From an uncultured Parvularculaceae bacterium (lineage in GTDB: Bacteria > Pseudomonadota > Alphaproteobacteria > Caulobacterales > Parvularculaceae), in contig CAJXLJ010000002.1 of assembly GCA_913055785.1 (NCBI GenBank), forward strand, positions 62,001-126,000: DNA of 64,000 nt, in the 5' to 3' direction. The translations under genes and the position numbers were made by a program. This document shows positions 1 to 52,918 of this stretch, piece by piece (position 1 is the first letter of the stretch; every line of letters begins with the position of its first letter). Under the pieces are notes generated by a model. That model was not told where the DNA came from. It did not search any database and was given only the letters and a program-made list of their open reading frames with translations.

Positions 1-1994
1 AATCGAACATCGTCCACATTGACAAGAACGTCTTCGCCCAAAGGCGTTACGGCAATAGAGACGTCGTGTTTTATGGCGAAGCCTGTATTTGCGGCCTTGG
101 CGTCCGAAAGCAGCTTGTTTACAGAATGCGCGCTGATCGCAACGCTGAAATTTCCGGATTCAATCTTTTCAATATCAAGTATGTCGTTGATGAGATCCAC
201 GAGGCGCTCGCCGTTCTTTTGCGCCATTTCCAGGAGTTCGACTGCTTTTTCCGGAATAGCGCCAAATACGCCAGACCGGATGAGACCCAAAGACCCCATG
301 ATAGACGTCATTGGCGTACGTAGTTCGTGGCTGACCGTAGAAATGAACTCGCCTTTCAATTTATCCAGTCGTTTTTGCTCGCTGAGATCGGATTTCAGTC
401 GATCGATTTTCTTTTGCTCTGTTATATCGGTCAAAATAACAGTGTAGAGCTTGTCGCCCCTCGCCTCGATCTCGCTCACGGAAGCATAGACCGGAATTGA
501 CTGACCGTCCTTTGAGCGCGCAAGGATTTCCTGACCGGCGCTGACGGCGCTTTGAATGGAGCGCCAGTTCACTTCGATATTTTGTGAATTGCCAGAACCA
601 TCAGGTTGCACCACATAATCAAGAAGGTTTGAGCCCACCAGGTGCTCATTCGGAAAACCGAACAATTGCGTTGTTGAAGGGTTCGCACTCTCAATCACGC
701 CAGAATGACTAACAGTGAGAATCGGGCTTCTGGCGTTATCCAGTATCGACCGGATGCTGGCTTCCTTCTCTTCCAGAATACCCTGGCGTTCCCGAAGCAC
801 TGCTGCCATCGAAAAAAACGAATTGCTGAGGGTTGCAACTTCTCCTGCCCCTGCCCGCGGCCGGAATATATCTTCCACAAAGGCGCCGGCTTCAAGTTCT
901 TTCGCAGCCTTCGTCAAATCATCGAGAGGCTTGACGATCATCCTTGCTGAGATAAACGCGAGAAAGCCGGCGGCGATGGCGAAAGCAAGCGTGACAAGTA
1001 GAATATTGTTCCGGGTTGCATGGATATCAGCCAGCAGCAAATTTTGCGGTGACATTGCGACCGCGATCATATATTTTCCGCCGCCGCCATATTTATTGTC
1101 ATAAGGCAATTTCTGTAAATGAACGATTTGCTTGCCGCTCGGCAGCTTGGCAATGCTTGTGAATACGCCATCTGCGCGCGCTTCCAGCTCGGTGAACAGT
1201 TTCGGAAATTCGTCGGAAACCCGATAGGGCGCGCCCAAATCGAAGCCAAAGGTTTTGCCGGGATCGGGATGCACCAGATAGTTTCCATCCTGATCCGCCA
1301 GATAGAAATGCGTCTGACTAGGTATGAATTCGTTCAGACGGCTATATACGGTGTTCATGTTGACGTTGATAACAACAACCCCGAATGGCTCGCCGGTTTC
1401 GGCGTATATCGGCGTTGAAATACGTTGAACCGGCGCCAGCGGGTTCTGAATTTCTCCAAACTCGCGATTGAGATTGATCTCGGAGATAAAAACCGTATTC
1501 GGCTTTTGCTTTATCGCTTCCGAGACATATGAATGCTGATCTTTTTGCTGAAGCCCCTGGTCGGGCACTCGAATTATGCCGTCTCGATCTTGGTTGATCC
1601 GCAATATTTCCCGGCCCTTGTCAGCCAAGGAAATGTAGCGGACCTGCATATAGTCGGGATTGGTGCTCGCAAGACTGGTGAAAATATGGGCCAACCGGTC
1701 CTTCCAGACCTTTTCTGTTGACCCGTCTCGCGGATCAACGCCGCCGTTTTTTCCGGCTCTGATCAGCCCCTGAATCGGCGGCGTTTCAGCAAGCAAAAGT
1801 GCGTCGCGGCTCGCATCATTGATGGTGTCTGTCAGATAGGCGGCGACATTTTCAATTTCATAGGCGAGAAGCTCGCCCCGGCGCTGGACCTGATCTTTCG
1901 TATAGTCGTGATATTGAATAAGGCCGATTGTTGCGGCCGTACATAAGACGAGCGCCACAGCTGTGAAAACAATCCGGCTTGTGATGCTGTTCAT
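1..1994 (-). CDS. Membrane sensor histidine kinase, C-terminus cut off by the window start
   Basis: The leftward frame is open from an ATG at 1994 to the window edge (about 664 residues visible) and starts Met-Asn-Ser-Ile-Thr-Ser-Arg. After an N-terminal membrane helix comes a long extracytoplasmic region that looks like a double-Cache ligand sensor. It is followed by a second membrane helix and a HAMP-like linker (ARMIVKPLDDLTKAAKELEAG, around bases 890-960). Next is a PAS domain, then the dimerisation/phosphoacceptor helix with SHELRTPMTS (bases about 320-340, His near residue 555). The catalytic ATPase domain lies outside the window. It is divergent from the response regulator at 2140, so the two probably form a phosphorelay together with the Hpt-REC-REC protein. 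The ligand is unknown. The reading frame was followed by eye and no stop codon was met. Confidence 0.85.
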   Translation of the reverse strand, partial: MNSITSRIVFTAVALVLCTAATIGLIQYHDYTKDQVQRRGELLAYEIENVAAYLTDTINDASRDALLLAETPPIQGLIRAGKNGGVDPRDGSTEKVWKDRLAHIFTSLASTNPDYMQVRYISLADKGREILRINQDRDGIIRVPDQGLQQKDQHSYVSEAIKQKPNTVFISEINLNREFGEIQNPLAPVQRISTPIYAETGEPFGVVVINVNMNTVYSRLNEFIPSQTHFYLADQDGNYLVHPDPGKTFGFDLGAPYRVSDEFPKLFTELEARADGVFTSIAKLPSGKQIVHLQKLPYDNKYGGGGKYMIAVAMSPQNLLLADIHATRNNILLVTLAFAIAAGFLAFISARMIVKPLDDLTKAAKELEAGAFVEDIFRPRAGAGEVATLSNSFFSMAAVLRERQGILEEKEASIRSILDNARSPILTVSHSGVIESANPSTTQLFGFPNEHLVGSNLLDYVVQPDGSGNSQNIEVNWRSIQSAVSAGQEILARSKDGQSIPVYASVSEIEARGDKLYTVILTDITEQKKIDRLKSDLSEQKRLDKLKGEFISTVSHELRTPMTSIMGSLGLIRSGVFGAIPEKAVELLEMAQKNGERLVDLINDILDIEKIESGNFSVAISAHSVNKLLSDAKAANTGFAIKHDVSIAVTPLGEDVLVNVDDVR

Positions 1995-2139
1995 GCCTGT
2001 ATCCCACAATTTTATAAGCTTATTAGGCGCTAACAGTTAAGGGTTTTTAAATTGGTTAATTGCTATGCAGTAACGGTTTCAGGGCGAGCTTTGAGCTATT
2101 ATCCGCCCCTCCTCCCGGCTACCGAGTGAGTATTAGCGT
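1995..2139. promoter_or_regulatory. Divergent intergenic region between sensor kinase and response regulator
   Basis: This A+T-rich 145-base gap must contain promoters for both the leftward kinase and the rightward regulator operon. It holds three TTAA tetramers (2037, 2047, 2056) and a near-palindrome TTAGGCGCTAA at 2023-2033. The TTAA spacings are 6 and 5, not the 7 expected of a CtrA box. The palindrome could be a regulator site, but no family can be assigned. Confidence 0.4.
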
Positions 2140-2529
2140 ATGAGCCATTCCGAATTACAGCGAATTGCTTGCGTCGAAGATGACGCTGATATTCGGTCAA
2201 TCGTGGAATTGTCGCTGGCCAATCTCGGCGGGTTTCAGATTACTCTCTATGAGAGCGGCGCGCAGGCGCTGGAACATATCGAAAAGTTTCAGCCGCAATT
2301 GATTATTCTCGATATGATGATGCCGGGAATGGATGGACTGGAAACGCTGCAACGCATCCGCGCCCTGCCGGCGTTAGCGGCTGTTCCTGCAGTGTTTATG
2401 ACCGCCAAGGCGCAGCCTAATGAAATTCAACGCTACGAACATTCCGGAGCGATCGGCGTCATTGTCAAACCGTTCGATCCGGTGTCACTGGCGTCGGAAG
2501 TAAAGAATCTTTGGCGAGCAGCGGCTTGA
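2140..2529 (+). CDS. Single-domain response regulator (CheY-like receiver)
   Basis: This 129-residue protein is almost entirely a receiver domain. The acidic pocket is Glu13-Asp14-Asp15, the phosphoacceptor is Asp58 in LIILDMMMPGMDG, and the switch Thr88 and invariant Lys110 (VKPF) are present. No output domain follows, so it must act by protein-protein contact or as a phosphate shuttle. It is divergent from the membrane histidine kinase (start 1994) and 52 bases upstream of the Hpt-REC-REC gene. This suggests a multistep relay controlling the downstream surface-polysaccharide genes. Receiver assignment is certain; the pathway is inferred from position. Confidence 0.93.
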   Translation: MSHSELQRIACVEDDADIRSIVELSLANLGGFQITLYESGAQALEHIEKFQPQLIILDMMMPGMDGLETLQRIRALPALAAVPAVFMTAKAQPNEIQRYEHSGAIGVIVKPFDPVSLASEVKNLWRAAA

Positions 2530-2581
2530 ATATCTGTTCAATCTGCCTGTCGGGCGGACAACGCGAGGGATAGTAGCAAGC

Positions 2582-3709
2582 GTGAAAGCTGATCATACCG
2601 GCTATGCTGATGTTTTCGACGCTTTGCAGCGCGACTATCGCGTAAAGCTTGACGAGTCCATTCCGCAATTGCGCGGATTCCTGGCTGATTTCCGTTCCGG
2701 CCGGATTGAACCGGAAAAGCTAGCGGAATTGCGCATGCTCTCGCACCAGATGGCCGGGGCCGCTGGAACTTTTGGTTTCGAAACTGTCGGGGTCGCTGCA
2801 CGCGCTGTCGAAAATGATGTTCGAGATATCAATAGTCGCGGCGCCGGCGTGCTCAAAAAAAGCCTTCTGGTCCTGATTGACGCATTATGTACCGTTGATG
2901 ACGGCCAGGCCGATCACTTAAAGATCGCGCCAGCCCCTGGAGATAAGGCGCCGGAGTCCGCACTGTCACGACCCAAGCTGCTCATGGCCGAGGATGACCC
3001 GATTGTGGTCGAGCTTCTCAAGAATCTCCTGCAGCACGAGATGGACATCATATTCACCAGCGACGGCTGTGGCGTATTCGATCTCGTAAAAAGAGAAAAA
3101 CCCGATCTGATTTTGCTTGACGATGATCTTCCAGGATTGACGGGAATAGAGGTCATCGAAAAGCTTCAAGCAGAAAACGATCTGAGTGAGATTCCAGTGA
3201 TCATGCTGACAGGCAACGCTGATCCTCGAAATGTTTTGAAAGCAATCAAAGCTGGCGCAAGCGACTATTTCACCAAGCCCTTCGAGCCGGTGAAGTTTGT
3301 GAATCATATTCGTGACCTGCTTTCGCGAAGAGATATCACGATTTTGATCGTAGACGACGACGCATCCATAAGGTCGCTCTTGTCCTATCGGTTTGAAACG
3401 ATTGGCGTTAAATGTTTCGAGGCGCGCAACGGCATTGAGGCGCTTGAAGCAGTTCGCCAGCGAACGCCAAGCCTCATCATACTCGACAGGATGATGCCGG
3501 GAATGGAAGGCGGCGCCGTTCTCAGCGAATTGCAACGCCAGGATGAATATAAAGATATTCCTGTCGTCATTCTTACTGCCAGAAGCAACCCGGAGGATTC
3601 GCTGAAATTGCTGCAGAGTGGCGCGGTCGAATTCATGTCGAAACCATTCAATCCGGAAGAGGTTGTGCTCCGAGTGTCGCGAATTTTGAATCTCGCTCAT
3701 GAGGAATAA
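2582..3709 (+). CDS. Phosphorelay protein with Hpt domain and two receiver domains
   Basis: GTG start; 375 residues. Residues 1-100 form a histidine phosphotransfer helical domain with His55 in LSHQMAGAAGTFGF. Residues 131-245 are receiver 1 (acid triad around 137-139, Asp180 acceptor, Thr210, Lys232). Residues 251-375 are receiver 2 (VDDD at 257-260, Asp302 acceptor in LDRMMPGMEG, conserved KPF near the end). There is no kinase, DNA-binding or GGDEF output, so it looks like an intermediate hub joining the kinase at the left edge to the CheY-like protein at 2140. The 3' end overlaps the YaiO-like gene by 11 bases, which ties the relay to the membrane genes downstream. Confidence 0.9.
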   Translation: MKADHTGYADVFDALQRDYRVKLDESIPQLRGFLADFRSGRIEPEKLAELRMLSHQMAGAAGTFGFETVGVAARAVENDVRDINSRGAGVLKKSLLVLIDALCTVDDGQADHLKIAPAPGDKAPESALSRPKLLMAEDDPIVVELLKNLLQHEMDIIFTSDGCGVFDLVKREKPDLILLDDDLPGLTGIEVIEKLQAENDLSEIPVIMLTGNADPRNVLKAIKAGASDYFTKPFEPVKFVNHIRDLLSRRDITILIVDDDASIRSLLSYRFETIGVKCFEARNGIEALEAVRQRTPSLIILDRMMPGMEGGAVLSELQRQDEYKDIPVVILTARSNPEDSLKLLQSGAVEFMSKPFNPEEVVLRVSRILNLAHEE

Positions 3710-4853
3710 CCCGAGGTCAGCATCTCTCCTTATTTCAGCGGCGTCGATTTGCTTCATGTTATTCGCAACCGGCGAGCCGGCTCATGCGCAAGACCCACAT
3801 GTTGTCCGCGCCCTGAACCTCGCCGCGGGCAAACAGTATGAAGACGCGCTTTCCGCTCTTGACGCTTTAGACGGCCGGGCTTCCGCCGCCTATGAAGTTC
3901 GGTTCGCTCGGGCGCGGATACTCGCCTGGGCTGGCGAATACGATCAGGCTGAGCAGGTCTATCAGGACCTTTTGGGAGATTATCCCGAGGACCCCGATAT
4001 TCTGATCGGATACGCCCAACTCGCCTATTATCAGCAAGATTTCGGAGCCGCGAAAAAACGCTTCGCGAGAGTGGCGGCGGCTTATCCGGAATATGACGAT
4101 GCGATAATCGGGCTGGAACGGACCAACCGCGCCTTGTCGTCTGCAGATGCTGATCCCAAAAGCCGTTGGCGATTGGATTACGCCGCGGAATTAAATACTT
4201 TTGAGCGCTCATCCAATGACAAATGGGAGTACTACACAGCGCAAATAACGAGACAGCGCAGCGGCTTATCGCTGTGGATAAAAGGCGAGCATTATCAACG
4301 CTTCGGCTTGCGCGATTCTACGGTCGCCATCGGCGCAGCAAGCAAAATTGGCGACAACTGGGACGCCGCGCTGACCATTGAGGGCACTCCAGACGCCGAT
4401 TTTAGGCCTGAATTCGCCATTGACGTCGAAATTGGGCGAACGTTTTTTCTATCCTCCGATATTCCAGCGCTGAGGCCGTATGTCCGCTACAATTTCGACA
4501 AGTACGCCGAACAGCCAATCCATATGATTTCACCGGGCGCCAATGCATATCTGGCGAACGGCTGGGTTTTTGACGTACGCTTGATAACTAGCGCACAGCG
4601 CGACGAGTCGGTCGAGATCGGCGGCATGGCGCGCCTAACGGCGCCGGTCGTTCAAAACATACGCGTCACGCTCGGCGCGGCAAATGCGCCTGAGGCCATT
4701 GACGGCGTTGTCGTTCGGACGGTGTCGGTATTTGGCGGGGTGCTGCTCGACATATCAGACAAGCTGTCTTTGCGCGCCGATTATGCAAGGGACGATCGGC
4801 AAAACTCATTCATCAGGAACGTGTTCAGTGTCAACGTCACTCACAGATTTTGA
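3699..4853 (+). CDS. YaiO-family outer-membrane beta-barrel protein with N-terminal TPRs
   Basis: 384 residues with an N-terminal signal sequence ending near AHAQ (residue 31). About 110 residues of TPR-like helices follow (QYEDALSALDAL, GEYDQAEQVYQDLLGDYPED, QDFGAAKKRFARVAAAYPEY). The rest is a beta-rich domain of alternating hydrophobic strands ending in Phe (VNVTHRF), as expected for an outer-membrane barrel. The layout of short TPR plus barrel matches YaiO and is a compact version of PgaA or the BcsC C-terminus. It probably forms the outer-membrane exit of the polysaccharide made by the glycosyltransferase two genes downstream. The start overlaps the relay gene and the 3' end overlaps the HEAT-repeat gene. 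Family call is fairly secure; exporter role is inferred. Confidence 0.8.
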   Translation: MRNNPRSASLLISAASICFMLFATGEPAHAQDPHVVRALNLAAGKQYEDALSALDALDGRASAAYEVRFARARILAWAGEYDQAEQVYQDLLGDYPEDPDILIGYAQLAYYQQDFGAAKKRFARVAAAYPEYDDAIIGLERTNRALSSADADPKSRWRLDYAAELNTFERSSNDKWEYYTAQITRQRSGLSLWIKGEHYQRFGLRDSTVAIGAASKIGDNWDAALTIEGTPDADFRPEFAIDVEIGRTFFLSSDIPALRPYVRYNFDKYAEQPIHMISPGANAYLANGWVFDVRLITSAQRDESVEIGGMARLTAPVVQNIRVTLGAANAPEAIDGVVVRTVSVFGGVLLDISDKLSLRADYARDDRQNSFIRNVFSVNVTHRF

Positions 4854-5898
4854 ACGGTTCCTTCTGGAAGCCATTATTGGCGTTTCGCTGGCATTGGCGG
4901 CGGCGTCCATCTTGATGGTTGGCGTACTCGCAATCCGCAGGGCCGCGAGAGACAGGCTGCGGTGCGCGCAGGCGGATCGGAACGAGGAACTGACGCAGGC
5001 GCTCAATATCGTTCTTTTTCAGAAGATTGAAAACGCGTCGGATATCCTGCCGCGTTTGAAGAAGGAGGACGCAAGCCCGCTTGTAGATGCGCTGTTGATG
5101 CTGCTGCGTAATTTGTCAGGACCGGTCCTGAAGAAACTAACACAGATCATCGAAAGCTGGGGGGCGGAAGACATAGCTTGCGCGCAAGCCTTGTCAGCAC
5201 GGCGCGGCGGACGAATTGAAGCGATCGCTGTCCTATCCTACCTTTCGTCTGAGAAGTCACTCGCCGTAATTTCAAGGAATCTTGAGTCGAGAGATTCTTA
5301 TATTCAACTTGCCGCCATGCGCGCGGCGGCCAGGCGAAACGCGACTCACCTCATTCCAGGCATAATCGAAAGGCTAAAGCGATCAGACGACCAGAACGGA
5401 AGACTGTTGGCTGGAATTCTATACCGTTTCGGCGCGGAAATTTCGCCATTCCTATCCGAACTGGCGATGTCCGCCGAAAGCGCCACTGTAAGGGCCGCCG
5501 CGCTCACCGCGCTGACATATGTTTCCGCACCGACAGTGTCTGTGGACTTGGAAGCTTGCATGAAAAGTCCAGACGTAAATATCCGTGCGACCGCGGTCAC
5601 GCTTGCCGGCGCAACGCATATGGAATCCGACGCCCCTTTTTTGAGCGCAGTATCGGATCAATCCGCGCTTGTGCGCGCGCGCGCGGCTTCGGCCATCAGG
5701 ACCGCGGAAAAACGCACTCTTATGGACAAGCTGGTGGAGCTTTATTCTGATCCCGTTTGGTGGGTGCGCTATCGCGCATGCCAGGCCCTGCTGGGGCTTG
5801 GAGCCGAGGGAAAAGCCATTCTCCGCTCGCTTTCCCGCATTGGCGGCGCAGAAAGCGTGTTGGCGACGGAAGTCCTTGCGGAAGCGGAGCGCCCATGA
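4828..5898 (+). CDS. Membrane-anchored HEAT-repeat protein
   Basis: About 356 residues from a GTG at 4828, which overlaps the end of the YaiO-like gene. The frame is open further upstream, but that would overlap the barrel gene by 170 bases. The N-terminus has one strong membrane helix (LLEAIIGVSLALAAASILMV) followed by a basic stop-transfer patch. The remainder is all-helical HEAT/PBS-type repeats, for example ESRDSYIQLAAMRAAARR, SPDVNIRATAVTLAGA, SALVRARAASAIRTAEKR and DPVWWVRYRACQALLGLG. The repeats are predicted cytoplasmic. Its stop overlaps the glycosyltransferase ATG (ATGA). It takes the place that PgaD-like or co-polymerase subunits hold in synthase-dependent secretion systems, so a scaffold role for the synthase is plausible but unproven. 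Confidence 0.75.
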   Translation: MSTSLTDFERFLLEAIIGVSLALAAASILMVGVLAIRRAARDRLRCAQADRNEELTQALNIVLFQKIENASDILPRLKKEDASPLVDALLMLLRNLSGPVLKKLTQIIESWGAEDIACAQALSARRGGRIEAIAVLSYLSSEKSLAVISRNLESRDSYIQLAAMRAAARRNATHLIPGIIERLKRSDDQNGRLLAGILYRFGAEISPFLSELAMSAESATVRAAALTALTYVSAPTVSVDLEACMKSPDVNIRATAVTLAGATHMESDAPFLSAVSDQSALVRARAASAIRTAEKRTLMDKLVELYSDPVWWVRYRACQALLGLGAEGKAILRSLSRIGGAESVLATEVLAEAERP

Positions 5899-7355
5899 TG
5901 GAACAAAACTGGACGTTTTTCATCGACTGGCTTTCGCAGTACGGCTTTGTTCTAGAATTTATCTCCTGGACCATCATTGCCGTCGGTTTGATTCAGAACC
6001 TTGTCTACGCGTCTCAAATCCCCATTGCGTGGCGCGAGCTAAAAGAACATTCACAGCATCAGGATTCCCAGACCGCATGGGAATTTCTGACGTCGAAAGC
6101 AAGTCTGCCAATTTCAATAGTCGTGCCGGCCTATAATGAGGCAGCGACAATCGCAGAAAGCCTTTCATCCCTGCTGGCGCTCAGATATCCGAATTTTGAG
6201 CTAATTGTCGTCAATGACGGCTCTACCGATAACACGCTTCAGGTTCTGATCGAGAAATTCGACCTGAAGCCGACAGTGCGCGTCAGAGACCGCGAATCTT
6301 TGAAGCATGAAGAAATAAGAGGCGTTTACAGCTCATCGATTTATCCTGACCTGCTTGTAGTCGACAAGAAAAACGGAGGGAGCAAGGCGGATGCAACCAA
6401 CGCAGGTCTTTCCTGCGTACGCACGCCGTTATTTTGCGTTATCGACGCTGACTCCGTGCTAGAATCAGACGCGCTGCTGGTGGCGGTCCGGCCCTTCATG
6501 GAATCATTCGCGCCCGTCATCGCCGTCGGGGGAACGGTAGGCATCGCCAATGGCTGCGTCATCAAGAATGGGCAGATGATCAAATTTGGCCTGCCCAAGA
6601 AATTTTTGCCGCGCATACAGGTTGTCGAATATACCCGGGCGTTTTTGATGGCGCGGCTTGCAAGCAGCAGGGTGGGAACCCTTGCGCTCATTTCCGGCGC
6701 ATTCGGTATCTTTCGCCGCGACGTCGCGATCGCCGCTGGCGGCTTCGACCGGACAACGCTCGGTGAAGACATGGAAATGGTCCTCAAGCTGCACAGGCAT
6801 ATGAAGACAAAGGGCGAGCCTTATGAGATCAGATATGTGCCGGAGCCTGTCTGCTGGACAGAGGCGCCGGAGACATTGACGACGCTGTCGCGCCAGCGGG
6901 TACGGTGGCAGCGGGGGGCGGTCGAATGCCTCGTTCGCTATCGCGATATGATTTTCAATCCAAAATTCGGTAGATTTGGCATGGTGACGTTGCCATTGAT
7001 GCTGCTGGTTGATCTGATCGCTCCTCTTGTCGAACTGACCGGCTATATCCTGATACCGCTTTTTGCCGCTTCAGGAATTTTGAGCGTCCATTTTCTTTTT
7101 GCTTATCTGGCGCTTGTCATTGTTTTTGGCGTATTCATCAGTACGATGTCAGTGCTACTCGAACAGTCTGAGCTGGAGCGGTTTGCGTCACCAAAGGATA
7201 TTGGGCGTCTTATATTGACATCGATTGTAGAACATTTCGGCTACAGACAGCTCTGCAACTATTGGCGCATCAAAGGCGTCATCGCCCATTTCCGCGGCAA
7301 GAAAGCAGTTTGGGAGCCGATGCCGCGGGTCGGATTTAATAATGCTGAGCGATAA
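5895..7355 (+). CDS. Processive family 2 glycosyltransferase (PgaC/BcsA-like membrane synthase)
   Basis: 486 residues from the ATG at 5895, chosen because it makes an ATGA overlap with the HEAT-repeat gene; the frame extends further upstream without support. One membrane helix (about 18-42) precedes the GT-A domain. It has VPAYNE at 77-82, VNDGSTDN at 106-113, DAD at 184-186, LGED at 289-292 and QRVRW at 334-338 (the Q-x-x-R-W motif of processive synthases). Several C-terminal membrane helices (about 365-440) follow. It probably polymerises an N-acetylhexosamine-type or similar glycan at the inner membrane. No deacetylase of the PgaB type lies nearby. Synthase class is secure; product unknown. 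Confidence 0.88.
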   Translation: MMEQNWTFFIDWLSQYGFVLEFISWTIIAVGLIQNLVYASQIPIAWRELKEHSQHQDSQTAWEFLTSKASLPISIVVPAYNEAATIAESLSSLLALRYPNFELIVVNDGSTDNTLQVLIEKFDLKPTVRVRDRESLKHEEIRGVYSSSIYPDLLVVDKKNGGSKADATNAGLSCVRTPLFCVIDADSVLESDALLVAVRPFMESFAPVIAVGGTVGIANGCVIKNGQMIKFGLPKKFLPRIQVVEYTRAFLMARLASSRVGTLALISGAFGIFRRDVAIAAGGFDRTTLGEDMEMVLKLHRHMKTKGEPYEIRYVPEPVCWTEAPETLTTLSRQRVRWQRGAVECLVRYRDMIFNPKFGRFGMVTLPLMLLVDLIAPLVELTGYILIPLFAASGILSVHFLFAYLALVIVFGVFISTMSVLLEQSELERFASPKDIGRLILTSIVEHFGYRQLCNYWRIKGVIAHFRGKKAVWEPMPRVGFNNAER

Positions 7356-7444
7356 AAGGAATAGAATCCAGTGCGAGAGTTCTCCGGCTATTTAAGCCGC
7401 GTCAGCGCGTTTCTCCGATTAACTGAAGACACGGCGCCGCGTAT

Positions 7445-7954
7445 CTACGCACCGCCGTTTTTGTCAGGAAAATTGTCAGGCGGCGCCGTGATCTCACCAA
7501 CATCCAGAACAGGCGCGGCGTCCAGCTCAGCCGCGTTCAGCAAAAACGCCGTTCGCTCCAGCGCTGCAACCAGAAAAGACTGTTCCCAGCTTTCAAGCTT
7601 CGAAAATCCTTTCTGGAACCGTCTTTGAAGACTGTCCGGCGCATCGCTGAGCGTCGCGAACCCCTCCTCCGTCAAATCAATATAGACACGGCGTTTATCG
7701 GTCTCATCCCGGCGCCGTCTAACGAGCCCCCTCTTTTCAAGTTTGTCGATCAGCGCCGTCACTGTCGCCTGGCTAAGCGATATCTCTTTTGCGAGGAAAC
7801 TTGGCGTAGCATCAGGCGCGCTGGTGATGATCTGCATGAGAATCAGCTGCGACGGCGTCAGCCCGCATTGCTTGGCGAGCGCCCGCGAACTGATTTCCGT
7901 CGCGCGCAAGATCTGGCGCAGGGCGATCAGGGCGGGGTCGAGACGATCGTTCAT
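7445..7954 (-). CDS. MarR-family transcriptional regulator
   Basis: 169 residues with a winged-helix MarR fold. It has LTPSQLILMQIITSAPDATPSFLAKEISLSQATVTALIDKLEKRGLV as helices 2 to 4 (split here only for description), then the basic wing RRRRDETDKRRVYIDLTEEG. It lies 29 bases behind the BCCT transporter gene on the same strand. MarR regulators of the EctR/CosR type govern compatible-solute genes in marine bacteria, so local control of the transporter is reasonable. That assignment is from position and general resemblance only. About 90 bases downstream, between its stop and the glycosyltransferase stop, hold no gene. Confidence 0.88.
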   Translation of the reverse strand: MNDRLDPALIALRQILRATEISSRALAKQCGLTPSQLILMQIITSAPDATPSFLAKEISLSQATVTALIDKLEKRGLVRRRRDETDKRRVYIDLTEEGFATLSDAPDSLQRRFQKGFSKLESWEQSFLVAALERTAFLLNAAELDAAPVLDVGEITAPPDNFPDKNGGA

Positions 7955-7983
7955 GGCCGTAAGGGATCAACGTTCCGGGTTGG

Positions 7984-9600
7984 CTATCGCCGCTTGGGCG
8001 CTTCCGTCCTTAATCCGCGATAGAGGCTGACGCAACACGCCAGCAACACTAATGTAAACGGCAGCCCCGCCGTAATCGCCCCCGCCTGCAGCGAAGACAA
8101 GGCGACAGAGCCGCCGCCGGCGAGCAGGACAATAGCGACCAGCCCTTCCATGGTCGCCCAGAAAATCCGCTGCGGCGCTGGCGCATGAAGCTTGCCGCCC
8201 GCCGTGATGCTGTCGATGACGAGCGAACCGGAATCCGACGAGGTCACAAAGAAAACGATTAAAAGAACAATGGCGACGAACATTGAAACTTCGGCGAAGG
8301 GCAGGTTCTCTAGCATCTGAAACAAGACGAGCGAAACTTCCGAAATGCCGTTCGGCAAATCGCCTACATTTCTGTCGATCTGGTCAAGCGCCGTGACGCC
8401 GAACGATGAAAACCAGATGATGCTGATAACCACCGGGACAATCATCACTGCGCTCAGAAATTCGCGAATCGTCCGCCCTTTGGACACGCGCGCAATAAAC
8501 ATGCCCACAAACGGCGACCAGGAAATCCACCACGCCCAATAGAAAGTGGTCCAGCCGTGAAACCATTCCTTGTCCTCGCGCCCGATCCAGTTGCTGAGAC
8601 GGGGCGTATCGAGGACGTAGCCGATCGCGTTTTTGCCGTAGCTTTTCAGGATGTCGCCGGTAGGCCCGGCGATAATAACAAATATCAACAGGCCGATTGC
8701 TATAACAATGTTGATATTGCTGAGCACTTTGACGCCCCCATCGAGCCCGCGCACAACGGAGAAAATAGCCATCGACGTAATGCCCATGATCAGGATCACT
8801 TGAGTTGTGAGGCTGTTTTCAACACCGAATAGGAAATGAAGGCCGCTCGCCGCCTGCTTCGCGCCAAGCCCGAGCGACGTGGCCAACCCGAACAGAGTCG
8901 CCAGTACGGCGAGCAGGTCGATAATGTGGCCCGGCCATCCCCAAACACGCTCCCCTAACAAAGGATAAAAAGCCGACCGTATTGTCAGAGGCAGCCCCTT
9001 GTTGAACGTAAAAAACGCGAGCGCCAGACCGACGACCGCATAGACCGCCCAGGGCGTCACCCCCCAGTGAAAGATTGTCGCGCTGAACGCCAGCCGCCTT
9101 GCTTCTTCCGTTAAAGGCGCCGCATCGAGCGGCGTGCCAAACCAGTCCGTGTAATAGGCCATGGGTTCGGCGGCGCCGTAGAATATCATGCCGATGCCAA
9201 CACCAGCCGAGAACAGCATGGAAAGCCATGACTTTGTGCTGAACTCAGGCTTCGCTTCCGGCCCGCCAAGGCGAATCCGGCCCAAGGGAGACAAGCCGAC
9301 AAAGAGACAGAAAAGGAAAACGATGTTCGTCGTGATGACGAAAAACCAGTCGAAATGAAGCAGCGTCCAGTCCTTGGCGCCGATCAGTAATGCGCTGGCT
9401 TGCGCGGGAAACACCAGCGTCCCGAGAGCGAATGTTAAAATCGCCGCGGCGCTGATAAAGAATACGGGATTGTGAATATCAAGGCCAAGGAGCTGAATAT
9501 TGTCCTGACCGGTATTATAGTCCGTGTCGTACACCGACTCATCCGGCGCGATTTGCTCTGGAAGCAGGAATTTCTGATCTTCATTGTCCGCTTCTGTCAT
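7984..9600 (-). CDS. BCCT-family osmolyte transporter
   Basis: 538 residues with about twelve membrane helices. The BCCT signature is clear in helix 8 (FYWAWWISWSPFVGMFIARV, followed by SKGRTIREF). The conserved GVGIGMIFYGAAEPM and the Trp-rich substrate region are also present. Such carriers take up glycine betaine, choline, carnitine, ectoine or DMSP using sodium or protons. The exact substrate cannot be read from the sequence. The long hydrophilic N-terminus (about 35 residues) may sense osmolarity or ions. Its ATG overlaps the stop of the sulfotransferase gene in a TGATG arrangement, so both are probably translated from one message, with the MarR gene next. Confidence 0.93.
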   Translation of the reverse strand: MTEADNEDQKFLLPEQIAPDESVYDTDYNTGQDNIQLLGLDIHNPVFFISAAAILTFALGTLVFPAQASALLIGAKDWTLLHFDWFFVITTNIVFLFCLFVGLSPLGRIRLGGPEAKPEFSTKSWLSMLFSAGVGIGMIFYGAAEPMAYYTDWFGTPLDAAPLTEEARRLAFSATIFHWGVTPWAVYAVVGLALAFFTFNKGLPLTIRSAFYPLLGERVWGWPGHIIDLLAVLATLFGLATSLGLGAKQAASGLHFLFGVENSLTTQVILIMGITSMAIFSVVRGLDGGVKVLSNINIVIAIGLLIFVIIAGPTGDILKSYGKNAIGYVLDTPRLSNWIGREDKEWFHGWTTFYWAWWISWSPFVGMFIARVSKGRTIREFLSAVMIVPVVISIIWFSSFGVTALDQIDRNVGDLPNGISEVSLVLFQMLENLPFAEVSMFVAIVLLIVFFVTSSDSGSLVIDSITAGGKLHAPAPQRIFWATMEGLVAIVLLAGGGSVALSSLQAGAITAGLPFTLVLLACCVSLYRGLRTEAPKRR

Positions 9601-11603
9601 CAGTTTTTAAACTCCGTTCGCGCCGCACCCAGGGCTTGTTTGAGCGGGCCAAGATAGGGCTCAAACCGCCGCCATTGATCTATTCCGGATTTAGTGATCG
9701 GCTTGCGCACCTGCTCGGAACTCGCTGTACGAACCGAGCGTTCCGTTTTATGGAATTCCAAGCAGGCGCTTTCAAAAGGAAGGCCGCAATAATCAAGAAT
9801 CCGGCGCACCTGCCCCTCCAGATCCTCAACCACGTCTTCATGCTGAACCCGAAGAACTCTTCCGGGCAAGACCGAATCCCAGTGCCGCATGAGGTCAATG
9901 TAATCGCGATAATATTGGCCGATTTCCTTTAGGCCGTAAGTAAACTCCTGCCCTTCGGCGAAGAGCTGCTTGAATCCGCTGAAGCAGCACGCCATGGGCT
10001 CGCGGCGGGCGTCGATGATCTTTGCATTCGGGAGGATGAGCTGGATAAGCCCGACATGTCTGAAATTGTTCGGCATCTTGTCAATAAAGTAAGGCGCTCC
10101 CGCGCGATGTATGCGCGTGTCGGCAATATATTTCGCGCCTAGCGCAGAAAGCTGGTCCGCCTCAATCTCCCACAGCGAGTGCGGGTAAACCTCTTCTCCA
10201 TCAACTTTCTTTTTCCGCCGTAATTTATGGGCCATCGCTAATATGTTCGGTAGTTCAAAGGTTCCGTCCACCTGGCTGTGGGAGGCGAGGATCTGCTCGA
10301 GCAGCGTCGAGCCGGCGCGAGGCAAACCGATAATAAAAATTGGATCCGGCGCAGAACACCCGCCACCATTGCGTCTGTCAAAGAGTTCGCTAGTGCATGC
10401 CTCGCTTTGCGCGCGGAGCTCGCCGGTCATTTGATCGGCGTCATAACGGCATTGAACACGCTTCAGTTCGTTCCCCTTGTTATAGTAATCAAAGGACGCC
10501 TCGAATTCCTCAAGATCCTCAAACGCTTTGCCGAGCGAAAAGCAGAGCTGAATACGCGCGCCATAGGGAAGTTGCTCGCTGCTCTCCTGCGCACGCATCG
10601 ACGCGAGTTCATCTTCCGTGAAGCGATATGTTTTCAGGTTCGCGAGGCCGTAATAGGCGTCTCCAAGGCTTGCACGCGCGCGATACGCCGCTTGGTAGGA
10701 TTGAACCGCTTCTTCCTGCCTGCCACAGGTTTTCAAAGCATGTCCGCGCGAGACAAGCGTCGCCGGATCGTCAGGAGATTTTTCGAGCACTTTCTCAAAT
10801 TGTGCGAGCGCTTCGTCAAACTCGCCAAGATGCATGCAGTCAATCGCAAGTTGCGATTGAAAGAACGGGTCTTCGGGATGCCGCTGATAGAGTTTCAAGG
10901 TTTCCTTGCGGGCAAGGTCATATCGCTGCCTTTTGCGCAAGACATTGATGTAATCAATGCGGGCTTCTACATTTTCCGGCTCAAAAGTCAGCGCGCTCTC
11001 AAGCAGAAATTCAGCGTCCTCGAATACACTGAACCGCGCGCCGATATCCGCCAGCAGCCTCATCCCCTCTACATGTCGCGGGTTTTTTTGCATGAAAGCG
11101 CGGCATATCTCTTCCGCTTTCAGCAAGCGCCCCTCATAAATCAGATTGGCGACCGCGATCAGCGGCTTCGGCAATCGCGCCCACCTGTCAGCCTGATAAC
11201 GCGCTTTCGCAGCGTCTTCTTCCCGCCCGGAAGCCTCCAGTATTTCGGCTTGCGCGCGCCAGCTCGCCTCCAGCGCAGGGTTAAACAGACATGCCTGTTG
11301 ATACGCTTTCAGCGCCTCGTCATCCCTGTCGAGCGACCGCAGAAGATGTCCTTCCTCCTGATAGGCGCGCCCAAATTCCGGCGCTGCGGATTTCAGCTTC
11401 TTCAGCCATTCAAACGCTGCATCCGGCCTTTTCAGATAACGGTCGCAAACCGCGCTCATATACAAAGCGTCAGCCAGATCCGGCGTGCGCCGCAAGATGA
11501 CGCCGAGAAAATCCAGGGCGTCGTTATACTTGCCGTCATAAAGACGGGCTTTCGCCTGTTTGAGCAACTCCTCAGTATTTTGCGCGCCAGACATCAAATC
11601 CAT
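9600..11603 (-). CDS. TPR-repeat sulfotransferase (tyrosylprotein-sulfotransferase-like)
   Basis: About 667 residues. The N-terminal 390 residues are TPR-like repeats (for example EFDEALAQFEKVLEKSPDDP). The C-terminal part is a Sulfotransfer_3-type domain. The 5'-phosphosulfate loop of PAPS binding is IIGLPRAGSTLLEQILASH (about residue 424-442), and the 3'-phosphate region is around KIIDARREPMACCFS. Start choice is uncertain. An ATG at 11645 is in frame but lies upstream of a 12-bp-stem hairpin (11613-11639), so I prefer the ATG at 11603; 11594 is also possible. It is coupled to the BCCT gene by TGATG. Bacterial relatives sulfate tyrosines or small molecules; the acceptor here is unknown. Confidence 0.85.
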   Translation of the reverse strand: MDLMSGAQNTEELLKQAKARLYDGKYNDALDFLGVILRRTPDLADALYMSAVCDRYLKRPDAAFEWLKKLKSAAPEFGRAYQEEGHLLRSLDRDDEALKAYQQACLFNPALEASWRAQAEILEASGREEDAAKARYQADRWARLPKPLIAVANLIYEGRLLKAEEICRAFMQKNPRHVEGMRLLADIGARFSVFEDAEFLLESALTFEPENVEARIDYINVLRKRQRYDLARKETLKLYQRHPEDPFFQSQLAIDCMHLGEFDEALAQFEKVLEKSPDDPATLVSRGHALKTCGRQEEAVQSYQAAYRARASLGDAYYGLANLKTYRFTEDELASMRAQESSEQLPYGARIQLCFSLGKAFEDLEEFEASFDYYNKGNELKRVQCRYDADQMTGELRAQSEACTSELFDRRNGGGCSAPDPIFIIGLPRAGSTLLEQILASHSQVDGTFELPNILAMAHKLRRKKKVDGEEVYPHSLWEIEADQLSALGAKYIADTRIHRAGAPYFIDKMPNNFRHVGLIQLILPNAKIIDARREPMACCFSGFKQLFAEGQEFTYGLKEIGQYYRDYIDLMRHWDSVLPGRVLRVQHEDVVEDLEGQVRRILDYCGLPFESACLEFHKTERSVRTASSEQVRKPITKSGIDQWRRFEPYLGPLKQALGAARTEFKN

Positions 11604-11612
11604 TCTGATGAA

Positions 11613-11639
11613 AAGCGCCCCTTTCAAAAAGGGGCGCTT
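11613..11639 (-). terminator. Rho-independent terminator or attenuator behind the TonB receptor gene
   Basis: A perfect 12-bp inverted repeat (left arm AAGCGCCCCTTT) with a 3-base loop. Read leftward it ends in a run of four T. It is about 42 bases past the TonB receptor stop and 10 bases before the preferred sulfotransferase start. It should stop most receptor transcripts. Read-through would give a receptor-sulfotransferase message with the hairpin next to the start codon. Confidence 0.75.
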
Positions 11640-11680
11640 GTCCATTTTGCAAAATCAAACCGCAGCAGGCGGTGTCACGA

Positions 11681-50561: not shown

Positions 50562-52826
50562 CTAATTCATCCCAAATTTCTTTGAGGTCGGAAAGCCTTT
50601 AGGGGCGATCCGGCCGGCCTGGGCGCGTTTGCCGAGATAGGATTTCCAGTCATCAACGGTCTGGGTCCGGCCCGACCGGTCTGTCCATGTAAGCCCCTCT
50701 TTGGCTGAAAACACCTTGGCGTCGGAAAGCCCGCCCTTCTGGAACTTCTGAAGCACGACGCCCTTGCCGCGGGACATTTCCGGCAGTTCCGCCGCCGGAA
50801 AAACAAGAAACTTTTTATTATCGCCGACCGAAGCCAGCATATCCCCCTCCGCCGGCCGGCAGACCGCCGCCTCCGCGCCCGCCGGAACGTTCAGCACCTG
50901 CTTGCCTTTTTTCGTGTTGGACAGACAGTCTTCTTCCTTCACGACAAAACCGTGGCCGGAGGACGACGCCACCAGAAATTTCCGTCCGCCTTCAAAGAGG
51001 AAGGCGGAAACAACCGCATCGTCATTGCCCATGTCCGCCATTAGCCGGATTGGCTCCCCATGGCCGCGTCCGCCCGGCAAGGCGCTGACATCAAGCGCAT
51101 AGAACTTTCCGTTCGTAGCAAACAGCATCAGCTTGTCCGTCGTCTGCGCAGGGACGACAAAGTGCTCCCTGTCTCCTTCCTTGTACTTGATCGACTTTCT
51201 GTCCTCCACATGCCCCTTCATCGTGCGCACCCAGCCCTTTTCGGAAATCACGATTGTAACGGGCTCTTTCTCGACCAGTATTTCAAGATCGATGTCTTCA
51301 ACGGCGGGCGCGTCCGCTATGTCGGTGCGTCGGCGACCCAGCTCGCTCTTTGGAACGAAGATCGTGCGGACGTTCCGCAGTTCGTCGGCGATTTTTTTCC
51401 ATTGCGCCTCATCAGACTTTAAAAGCGCTTTTAGCTCTTTTTGTTCTTTCTTGAGGTCCGCGTGCTCGGTCTTGATCTCCATTTCTTCTAGCTTGCGCAA
51501 GGATCTGAGGCGCATGTTGAGGATCGCTTCGGCCTGAACATCCGAAAGCTTGAAAGCTTTCATCAGTTCCGCTTTCGGATCGTCTTCATAGCGGATGATG
51601 CGGATCACCTCGTCGAGGTTCAGATAGGCGATCAAAAACCCGTCAAGAATTTCAAGCCGCCGTGCGATTTTATCCAGGCGGAACCGGGTGCGCCGGACCA
51701 GCACTTCTTTCCGATGATCGAGATAGGCCTGCAACACCTCGCGCAGGCCCATGACGCGAGGACTCCCATCGGCGCCGAGCACATTCATGTTGAGCGAGAA
51801 GCGTTGCTCAAGCTCGGTCTGCTTGAACAGTGTTTCCATCAGCGCCGCCGGATCGATATTGCCGGTTTTCGGCTCGAGAATGAGCCGGATGTCTTCCGCG
51901 CTTTCATCGCGAATGTCGGCGAGCGCCGGCAGTTTTTTACTCTGAATAAGCTCGGCGACTTTCTCGATCAGTTTCGACTTTTGAACCTGATAGGGAATCT
52001 CGGTGACGACGATATGATAACGGCCCCGGCCGAGGTCCTCCGTCGACCAGCGCGCGCGCACGCGAAAACCGCCCCGGCCGGTGGCGTAGGCTTCCTCCAT
52101 CGACGCCGCATCCTCAACACAGACGCCGCCAGTGGGAAAGTCCGGCCCCTTGACGTAATTCAACAGCGTCGCCGTGCGCGCGTTCGGCGTTTTGATGAGG
52201 TGAAGCGACGCATCGATCAGCTCGGCGACATTGTGCGGCGGGATCGAGGTCGCCATGCCGACTGCAATGCCCGAAGCGCCGTTCGCAAGGAGGTTCGGAA
52301 ACGCCGCGGGCAGCACCGCCGGCTCTTTGCCCTCGCCGTCATATGTCTCGCGAAAATCGACCGTATCCTCGTCAATACCGTCGAGGAGAAGCTGCGCGGC
52401 TTCCGTGAGCCGGCTTTCAGTATACCGCATGGCCGCAGCGTTATCGCCGTCGATATTGCCGAAATTTCCCTGACCGTCGATCAACGGCGCGCGTACGGAA
52501 AAGTCCTGCACGAGACGCACCATGGCGTCGTAGATCGCCTGATCGCCGTGAGGGTGAAAGTTGCCCATGACCTCGCCGACAACTTTTGCCGACTTCTTGA
52601 AACTCCCGCTGGCGGTGAGCTTCATCTGGCGCATGGCGTAAAGAATGCGGCGGTGAACCGGTTTCAGGCCGTCGCGAACATCGGGCAGCGCCCGGGCGGT
52701 GATCGTCGAAAGCGCATAGGCGAGATAGCGCTGCGACAGCGCCTCGTCGAAAGGTTCAAGAAAAATCTCTTCCGGCTTGGAAGGCTTGGCAGCCTTGGCG
52801 GGTTTTTTGGTTTTCGATCGGGCCAT
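50562..52826 (-). CDS. parC: DNA topoisomerase IV subunit A
   Basis: 754 residues from the ATG giving [20 protein letters not shown]; the frame extends upstream but that part is not ParC-like. [20 protein letters not shown] and the catalytic Tyr in [15 protein letters not shown] are conserved. [14 protein letters not shown]-type [18 protein letters not shown] is present, and the C-terminal beta-propeller is the short ParC form rather than GyrA. It decatenates daughter chromosomes with ParE. It converges on the diguanylate cyclase with 18 bases between stops. Confidence 0.96.
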
Positions 52827-52918
52827 AGCGGATGGACATAGCAGAGTCTGGCCGCGCCGCCAGTCGGAAAACCGCCCAAGAGGAGCGTAAAACGCCGCCT
52901 TTAGCATTTTTCAGCCGC

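Follow-up and report, generated by a model that had tools for sequence, protein, structure and literature searches.

The window analyzed here is a 64,000-nucleotide stretch of contig CAJXLJ010000002.1 from an uncultured member of the Parvularculaceae. At its left end lie six genes (Table 1): a hybrid histidine kinase, a single-domain response-regulator receiver (REC), an Hpt-REC-REC hub, an outer-membrane barrel of the YaiO family preceded by a TPR domain, a membrane-anchored HEAT-repeat protein, and a family 2 glycosyltransferase (GT2). The hub and barrel genes overlap by 11 bases and the barrel and HEAT genes by 26 if GTG 4828, the most likely start of the HEAT gene, is taken. The HEAT and synthase genes overlap as ATGA, the synthase starting at ATG 5895. 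All six genes, and each of these overlaps, had been reported in an initial annotation made from the sequence and are confirmed. A promoter and terminator scan of window positions 1900-7600 returned fewer sites than in shuffled sequence, and Rfam gave no match in positions 1-8000. The window holds one version of a widespread module in which a receiver, a membrane-anchored HEAT protein and a GT2 synthase would work together as set out below, a reading to which a probability of about one half is assigned. The REC-HEAT-synthase core is so far without a name, and is found across many bacteria and some archaea.

Table 1. Genes of the module at the left end of the window.
Feature	Position	Strand	Details
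Hybrid histidine kinase, part within the window	3..2009	minus	Pfam on full gene and open reading frame (ORF); continues beyond window edge
Single-domain receiver	2140..2529	plus	129 aa; Response_reg 90.3 bits
Hpt-REC-REC hub	2582..3709	plus	375 aa, GTG start; two Response_reg stretches
TPR domain and YaiO barrel	3699..4853	plus	384 aa; TIGR04390 80.5 bits (cut-off 32), PF19413 28.7 (23.9)
Membrane-anchored HEAT-repeat protein	4828..5898	plus	356 aa, GTG start, one N-terminal transmembrane (TM) helix; PF13646 59.3 bits (cut-off 27.7)
GT2 glycan synthase	5895..7355	plus	486 aa; PF13641 93 bits (cut-off 27)

Linkage of the HEAT Protein and the Synthase

An alignment of three synthases was scanned against a named genome collection, and the best 80 of 526 relatives were examined, their loci being read with hidden Markov models for HEAT, YaiO, glycosyltransferase (GT) and REC domains. 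A HEAT gene was scored as adjacent if it matched the profile at E < 1e-20, lay on the same strand and ended at most 500 bases from the earliest plausible synthase start. By this measure HEAT lies directly 5' of the synthase in 63 of the 80 loci and is fused to it in another four, giving 67/80 linked loci. Five loci, all from Nitrospira, have HEAT at some other place in the locus; none was scored in eight. Three of these eight (L041, L044, L046) begin at or near the stored locus edge, and another, L067, is a fifth fusion whose N-terminal part is 42% identical to L061. The exact 4-base overlap of HEAT stop and synthase start recurs in 32 of 58 adjacent pairs, and 53 of the 58 lie within 17 bases; this count covers 58 of the 63 adjacent pairs, with synthase starts picked by script. 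YaiO is found 5' in 28 and 3' in seven of the 67 linked loci. The five fusions (L061, L067, L070, L081, L083) come from genomes labeled Bacillota, Mycoplasmatota and Spirochaetota, and a receiver protein precedes each. Taken together, fusion, overlap and co-occurrence indicate that the HEAT protein and the synthase very probably form a physical complex.

Because the HEAT profile was iterated on these same loci its E-values there are inflated, and searches begun from the HEAT protein serve as the independent check. Before iteration a two-sequence HEAT profile already matched 51 ORFs at E ≤ 1e-6 (L010-L097). Two peculiarities of individual loci were recorded. In Nitrospira L035, L039 and L088 the HEAT and YaiO genes are on the strand opposite the synthase, with a protein of ~550 aa encoded between. 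L023 comes from a metagenome-assembled genome labeled Klebsiella pneumoniae, a label that is probably wrong because its version of the module groups with that of proteobacterial L018.

Distribution Seen from the HEAT Protein

Counts taken from the HEAT side cover the fetched loci, each with a flank of ~1.5 kb or less: 13 + 17 loci for 39 matching Pseudomonadota genomes, 20 for 78 of Bacillota, 25 for 48 of Bacteroidota and 12 for 18 archaeal ones. Already known among them were the window genome, G041, G057 and G071 (Pseudomonadota), G709 (Bacillota) and G705 (archaea). A 44-sequence HEAT profile searched against 299 Pseudomonadota genomes matched 39 at E ≤ 1e-10, and the matches are of two kinds. 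Where the match is full-length (E ≤ 8.6e-44), the synthase follows in 13/13 loci and YaiO directly precedes in 11; a receiver on the same strand is present in nine, two loci end too early to show one, and in the remaining two that strand is without one. Around the partial matches, which are generic HEAT proteins, synthase, YaiO and receiver were found in 0/17 loci, 13 of which show at least 0.8 kb past HEAT; in controls L120, L123, L124 and L132 HEAT frames fill much of the flank.

The same association holds in other phyla. Receiver, HEAT and synthase stand in this order in 12 of the 20 Bacillota loci, the other eight showing neither partner. Among the 25 Bacteroidota loci a synthase is present in 23 (L205 and L215 being without one) and a receiver lies 5' in 18. 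In the haloarchaeon's phylum 3/12 loci, the known Halorarius locus included, have all three genes, and nine show neither partner. A first search of the class had matched 8/385 genomes, with the synthase 3' in six of the eight loci; of the exceptions, L093 ends right after HEAT and L097 encodes a large generic HEAT protein. The initial annotation had taken the genes for one regulated machine and had named rare co-occurrence elsewhere as grounds for giving this up; the three-gene order was searched for and recurs across phyla, and the genes form one conserved module.

Close to home the module is sporadic. When the window HEAT protein was searched against 59 other genomes, it was found in 0/27 of the genus (one weak 83-residue match, 4.6e-4), 0/8 of the family and 2/24 of the order, namely G041 and G057. 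Among L010-L097, the Bacillota-labeled loci and the Halorarius locus gave no YaiO match; since REC, HEAT and synthase occur there without it, YaiO looks like an addition to the core that bacteria with two membranes have made. The designation "secretion system" originally given to the module thus suits the YaiO-bearing version and does not extend to the core, which consists of receiver, HEAT protein and synthase.

Fold and Membrane Topology of the HEAT Protein

An AlphaFold2 model of the HEAT protein, built from 44 author-chosen sequences, shows a long first helix followed by a regular HEAT solenoid, with a mean predicted local distance difference test score (pLDDT) of 93.5 and a predicted template modeling score (pTM) of 0.85. 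Both the profile score, above its cut-off, and this alpha-solenoid model place the protein among HEAT solenoids. The nearest solved structures are designed alphaRep binders, which are HEAT-like, with PP2A and Integrator scaffolds among others further down, and the modeled fold points to a role in binding, not to a known enzyme.

Topology was assessed by hydropathy counts rather than a trained predictor, in 66 of 86 loci comprising 61 of the 80 and five class loci including the window; L026, L045 and L096 were omitted for merged open frames. An N-terminal TM helix is present in 65 of the 66 HEAT proteins. Lysine and arginine are in excess on the HEAT side of this helix in 60 of the 65, fewer in three and equal in two, and by the positive-inside rule this bias places the solenoid in the cytosol. 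The fusions lead to the same side of the membrane. Two TM helices separate the HEAT and GT domains in all five, and a single N-terminal TM helix is found in 66 of 71 unfused synthase rows (L067, which belongs to a fusion, is counted among these rows with its synthase portion); the one extra helix in every fusion is what would be required if the HEAT and GT domains share a membrane side. GT domains working with nucleotide sugars face the cytosol, as established for BcsA and PgaC. The HEAT solenoid is therefore likely to be cytosolic and situated beside the synthase, as far as can be judged from sequence. An alignment mixing fusions with separate proteins, in which HEAT proteins were aligned onto the synthase part, was set aside.

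The Synthase and the Barrel

Hydropathy gives the window synthase a single TM helix at the N terminus and two at the C terminus, and the protein carries the motifs VNDGS, DADS, GEDM and QRVRW. It thus shows the sequence features expected of a processive GT2 (NDGS, DxD, ED, QxxRW and C-terminal TM helices), in keeping with the earlier suggestion that it resembles the synthases of export systems. Among solved structures, a match to chondroitin synthase spanning 66 residues is followed by one to cellulose synthase, the membrane GT2 that aligns with the greater part of the catalytic domain. Among the 67 linked synthases the motif patterns were found for NDGS in 64, QxxRW in 60, ED in 57 and DxD in 53, and 10 of the 14 DxD misses are from Bacteroidota. 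PgaC, the synthase of poly-N-acetylglucosamine (PNAG), is the best NCBIfam model, but the PgaC equivalog TIGR03937 reaches 147.8 bits against a cut-off of 422.3, so that the protein does not classify as a PNAG synthase. Pfam found no PilZ domain in it. In a quick tree, 75 synthases separate from E. coli PgaC, YaiP, NfrB and BcsA with support 91, and the window synthase groups with L010 and L094 with support 98. The 75 rows include five loci scored without HEAT (L034, L041, L044, L046, L067) and the five Nitrospira loci with HEAT elsewhere; L085 and L086 are absent.

Counterparts of the periplasmic and membrane partners in known export systems were reported missing in the initial annotation, and the wider search agrees: phmmer with E. 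coli PgaB (minus its end), PgaD and BcsB found relatives in 0/67 linked loci, some of which are short. Two Polysacc_deac_1 proteins are encoded on other contigs of the window's genome.

The barrel belongs to the YaiO family, exceeding both curated cut-offs. Its AlphaFold2 model, built from 31 author-chosen sequences, has TPR helices followed by 14 strands (pLDDT 90.7, pTM 0.69). Foldseek placed OmpG first and BcsC, together with its TPR part, second; the polysaccharide secretin 4y25 and PelBC stand further down, and most of the 50 matches listed are general porins and autotransporters. The likeness to polysaccharide exporters noted earlier is thus borne out, within a list dominated by other barrels.

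Receivers and the Phosphorelay

The full kinase gene encodes 921 aa (L002:9244-12009) arranged as sensor-HAMP-PAS-HisKA-HATPase-REC in Pfam, the HAMP and dCache matches being below their cut-offs. The lone receiver retains the acidic pair, phospho-Asp, Thr and Lys on a residue check, and the key residues are intact in both hub receivers. The hub's Hpt domain barely exceeds the Pfam cut-off (25.0 against 24.6 bits), with its histidine read by eye within LSHQMAG. All parts of a putative multistep phosphorelay are thus present: a REC-bearing kinase, an Hpt domain with its histidine, and receivers with their Asp. Pfam detected no DNA-binding domain in the hub or the lone receiver, so the output is likely to be protein contact.

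Elsewhere a receiver was counted as next upstream if it was on the same strand and ended at most 350 bases before the YaiO or HEAT start, or overlapped it by at most 900 bases (over-long frames). This is the case in 51 of the 67 linked loci, including all four counted fusions; three of the 67 have too little upstream sequence for a call. The residues D, K and T/S are retained in 43 of the 51. Phosphorelay parts travel with the module, as had been proposed for checking. In G041 and G057, which belong to the same taxonomic order as the window's genome, the genes run REC-YaiO-HEAT-GT-kinase-REC-Hpt. L064 contains REC-Hpt-REC, Bacillus L030 joins Hpt, two REC and GGDEF domains in a single protein, and Halorarius L047 reads REC-HEAT-GT-kinase. 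On a plasmid of Mesorhizobium ciceri WSM1271 the order is ATP-binding protein, REC, REC, YaiO, HEAT, GT, Hpt, all under general annotations; Pfam identifies the ATP-binding protein as a kinase with two receivers. Emticicia oligotrophica DSM 17448 is a further candidate carrier, in which a hypothetical gene precedes the synthase at the place of HEAT. In L010 two receiver proteins with Hpt matches of 22.7 and 23.5 bits, below the 24.6 cut-off, precede YaiO-HEAT-GT, and the protein at L010:1403-2536, with the 23.5-bit match, is hub-like. Judged from linkage, the receiver may well act on the HEAT protein.

Proposed Mechanism and Alternatives

The hybrid kinase would send phosphate via Hpt to the receivers, and a phosphorylated receiver would then dock in the cytosol on the solenoid of the HEAT protein. 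Anchored in the inner membrane by its one TM helix and co-translated with the synthase, the HEAT protein would sit against the synthase and switch or assemble it. The synthase would polymerize a sugar, an N-acetylhexosamine polymer being the likeliest guess, and move the chain through the inner membrane; where a two-membrane bacterium has YaiO, the chain would exit by the TPR-YaiO barrel. Homology suggests that the product is probably an exported polysaccharide. A broader and more tentative proposal is that REC-HEAT-GT2 is a basic device of bacteria and haloarchaea in which the docked receiver gates the synthase directly, as a phosphorelay equivalent of the control of cellulose and PNAG synthases by cyclic di-GMP, and to which diderms may have added the YaiO pore and within which some lineages may have fused HEAT and synthase.

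Several observations weigh against this mechanism. There is no adjacent receiver in 13 of the 67 linked loci, including Bacillota L033, L042, L060, L077 and L087, nor a preceding one in four of the five Nitrospira loci with HEAT apart from the synthase. Eight of the 51 upstream receivers are without one of D, K and T/S, a kinase was found by regular expression near only 20 of the 67 linked loci, and no ORF joining REC and HEAT domains was seen in L010-L097. GGDEF domains in the receiver proteins of L030 and L061 make a link to cyclic di-GMP (c-di-GMP) possible there. The motif patterns miss in some synthases, in part owing to cut ORFs or strict patterns, and some members may therefore differ in activity. 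In the tree the four E. coli yardsticks are on very long branches, two long-branch pairs meet, and the group hinges on the BcsA root; owing to the long branches the tree shows a separate group and does not allow its sister to be named.

Some of these points suit a rather unlikely alternative, in which the HEAT protein serves solely as a cytosolic scaffold for synthase assembly or stability, the phosphorelay has another target or works by an output outside the operon, and the linkage reflects loose co-regulation. The HEAT-synthase linkage (67/80) is tighter than that of the receiver (51/67), the 13 loci lacking an adjacent receiver do have upstream sequence, and HEAT solenoids are general binding scaffolds, as the alphaRep, PP2A and Integrator matches illustrate. 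Such loose co-regulation fits poorly with the receiver's position directly upstream in 12/12 synthase-linked Bacillota and 3/3 archaeal loci found from the HEAT side and in all four counted fusions, and the missing DNA-binding domains of hub and lone receiver favor an output by contact. The initial annotation had instead put the HEAT protein in the middle place of an export machine, that is, the periplasmic place of PgaB or BcsB, bridging synthase and barrel. In 28 of the 67 linked loci its gene does lie with the barrel gene on one side and the synthase gene on the other, and no relatives of E. coli PgaB, PgaD and BcsB were found in the linked loci, but this placement is now the least probable of all: the charge bias points inward in 60 of 65 proteins (three opposite, two tied), the fusions have their extra TM helix, and HEAT-synthase pairs occur with no YaiO match in the Bacillota-labeled loci and Halorarius.

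The nature of the product bears on two further alternatives. A short glycan or a glycolipid as the GT2 product, in place of an exported polymer and with another role for the barrel, is unlikely. The PgaC equivalog score far below its cut-off would fit this, as would the 32 of 67 linked loci with no YaiO directly beside the pair (some have it elsewhere in the locus) and the general porins among the barrel's structural matches; QxxRW in 60/67 synthases, the cellulose synthase match over most of the catalytic domain and the match of the TPR and barrel model to BcsC speak for a polymer. An ordinary c-di-GMP-controlled system of the PNAG type that has simply lost PgaB and PgaD is very unlikely, even with PgaC as the top NCBIfam model and GGDEF domains in the receiver proteins of two tested loci, L030 and L061, because the synthases form a group separate from PgaC, the window synthase has no PilZ match, and the HEAT partner is nearly constant in linked loci where PgaB and PgaD relatives number 0/67. 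If the phosphorelay mechanism is correct, it would give a function to many genes now labeled "HEAT repeat domain-containing protein", "response regulator" or "glycosyltransferase family 2".

Genomic Context and Neighboring Genes

Next to the kinase, immediately beyond the left edge of the window, is a gene for a resistance-nodulation-division (RND) pump. In two relatives from the genus, G003 and G020 (L177, L178), the RND gene lies ~9 and ~5 kb from the match of window gene 50562-52907, against ~52 kb in the window genome. This difference in spacing places the module within a variable region, which may take up most of the window (1-50500). The first 16 kb have a GC content of 0.51-0.56, the remaining window one of 0.53-0.61. 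A TPR-sulfotransferase gene lies near the module (window 9600-11645, minus strand); it is not tied to it, since 18 of the 28 genus genomes, the window's among them, have relatives (E ≤ 1e-50, paralogues included).

Other genes recur near the pair in distant loci. Proteins resembling lipoteichoic acid (LTA) synthase, of the sulfatase fold, are near it in 6/67 loci; loci with such proteins are L037, L051, L053, L055, L071, L084 and L154, with a fusion to the synthase in L053. These neighbors hint at decoration with phosphoglycerol or a similar group. Relatives of a sulfatase-domain protein are near the pair in 2/67 loci. A protein of ~400-1100 aa is found near it in eight Bacillota loci (L030, L033, L043, L060, L065, L069, L077, L087) and by eye looks like a glycoside hydrolase; two members tested matched no Pfam family, and a two-member profile found no solved relative. 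L074 encodes a DUF4838 protein with a NAGLU_N match below cut-off.

Comparison with Known Systems

Full-text searching of the open-access literature listed no paper whose title or opening abstract lines point to the receiver-HEAT-synthase triad. In passages of PMC12419801 the mention of HEAT concerns beta-catenin, and passages of PMC8117528 name neither NfrA nor NfrB. The system was first called undescribed, which is correct for the literature searched and not provable from open access alone.

Several known systems share parts of the module. Of the annotated systems with a barrel and a GT that were examined, two from E. coli come nearest, and neither shows a HEAT partner. E. coli NfrA-NfrB likewise pairs an outer-membrane protein with an inner-membrane GT and is annotated as an exopolysaccharide secretion system, but NfrB is annotated as c-di-GMP-activated, has no HEAT gene annotated beside it, and branches apart from the synthase group, its own branch being very long. 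The E. coli yaiS-yaiP-yaiX-yaiO cluster also combines a YaiO barrel with a GT2 synthase; it differs in having an annotated deacetylase and a broken acyltransferase gene, with no HEAT or receiver gene in the stretch shown, and YaiP lies outside the window's synthase group on a long branch. XagABC of Xanthomonas has a barrel and a PgaC-like GT without PgaB, and to our knowledge no HEAT protein belongs to it. With BcsABC the module shares a processive-type GT2 and a TPR-barrel exporter, BcsC being a structural match of the YaiO model. It differs in that the window GT has no PilZ match and that E. coli BcsB relatives number 0/67 in the linked loci.

The PNAG system PgaABCD (Pga/Hms/Ica) shares with the YaiO-bearing version a GT2 membrane synthase, a TPR-barrel outer-membrane protein, and a membrane partner of the synthase that may convey the control signal. 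The partner here is a HEAT protein accompanied by a phosphorelay, PgaB and PgaD relatives were not found in the 67 linked loci, and the window synthase has one N-terminal TM helix against two in E. coli PgaC (hydropathy) and stands apart from it in the tree. PgaC receives its control signal by way of PgaD, a small partner in the membrane. By analogy, the HEAT protein looks like a PgaD-type synthase partner for which a phosphorelay input would replace c-di-GMP. Most known synthase-dependent polysaccharides are under c-di-GMP control, and the module, if it works as proposed, would represent a second, phosphorelay-driven way of switching a glycan synthase, by protein contact.

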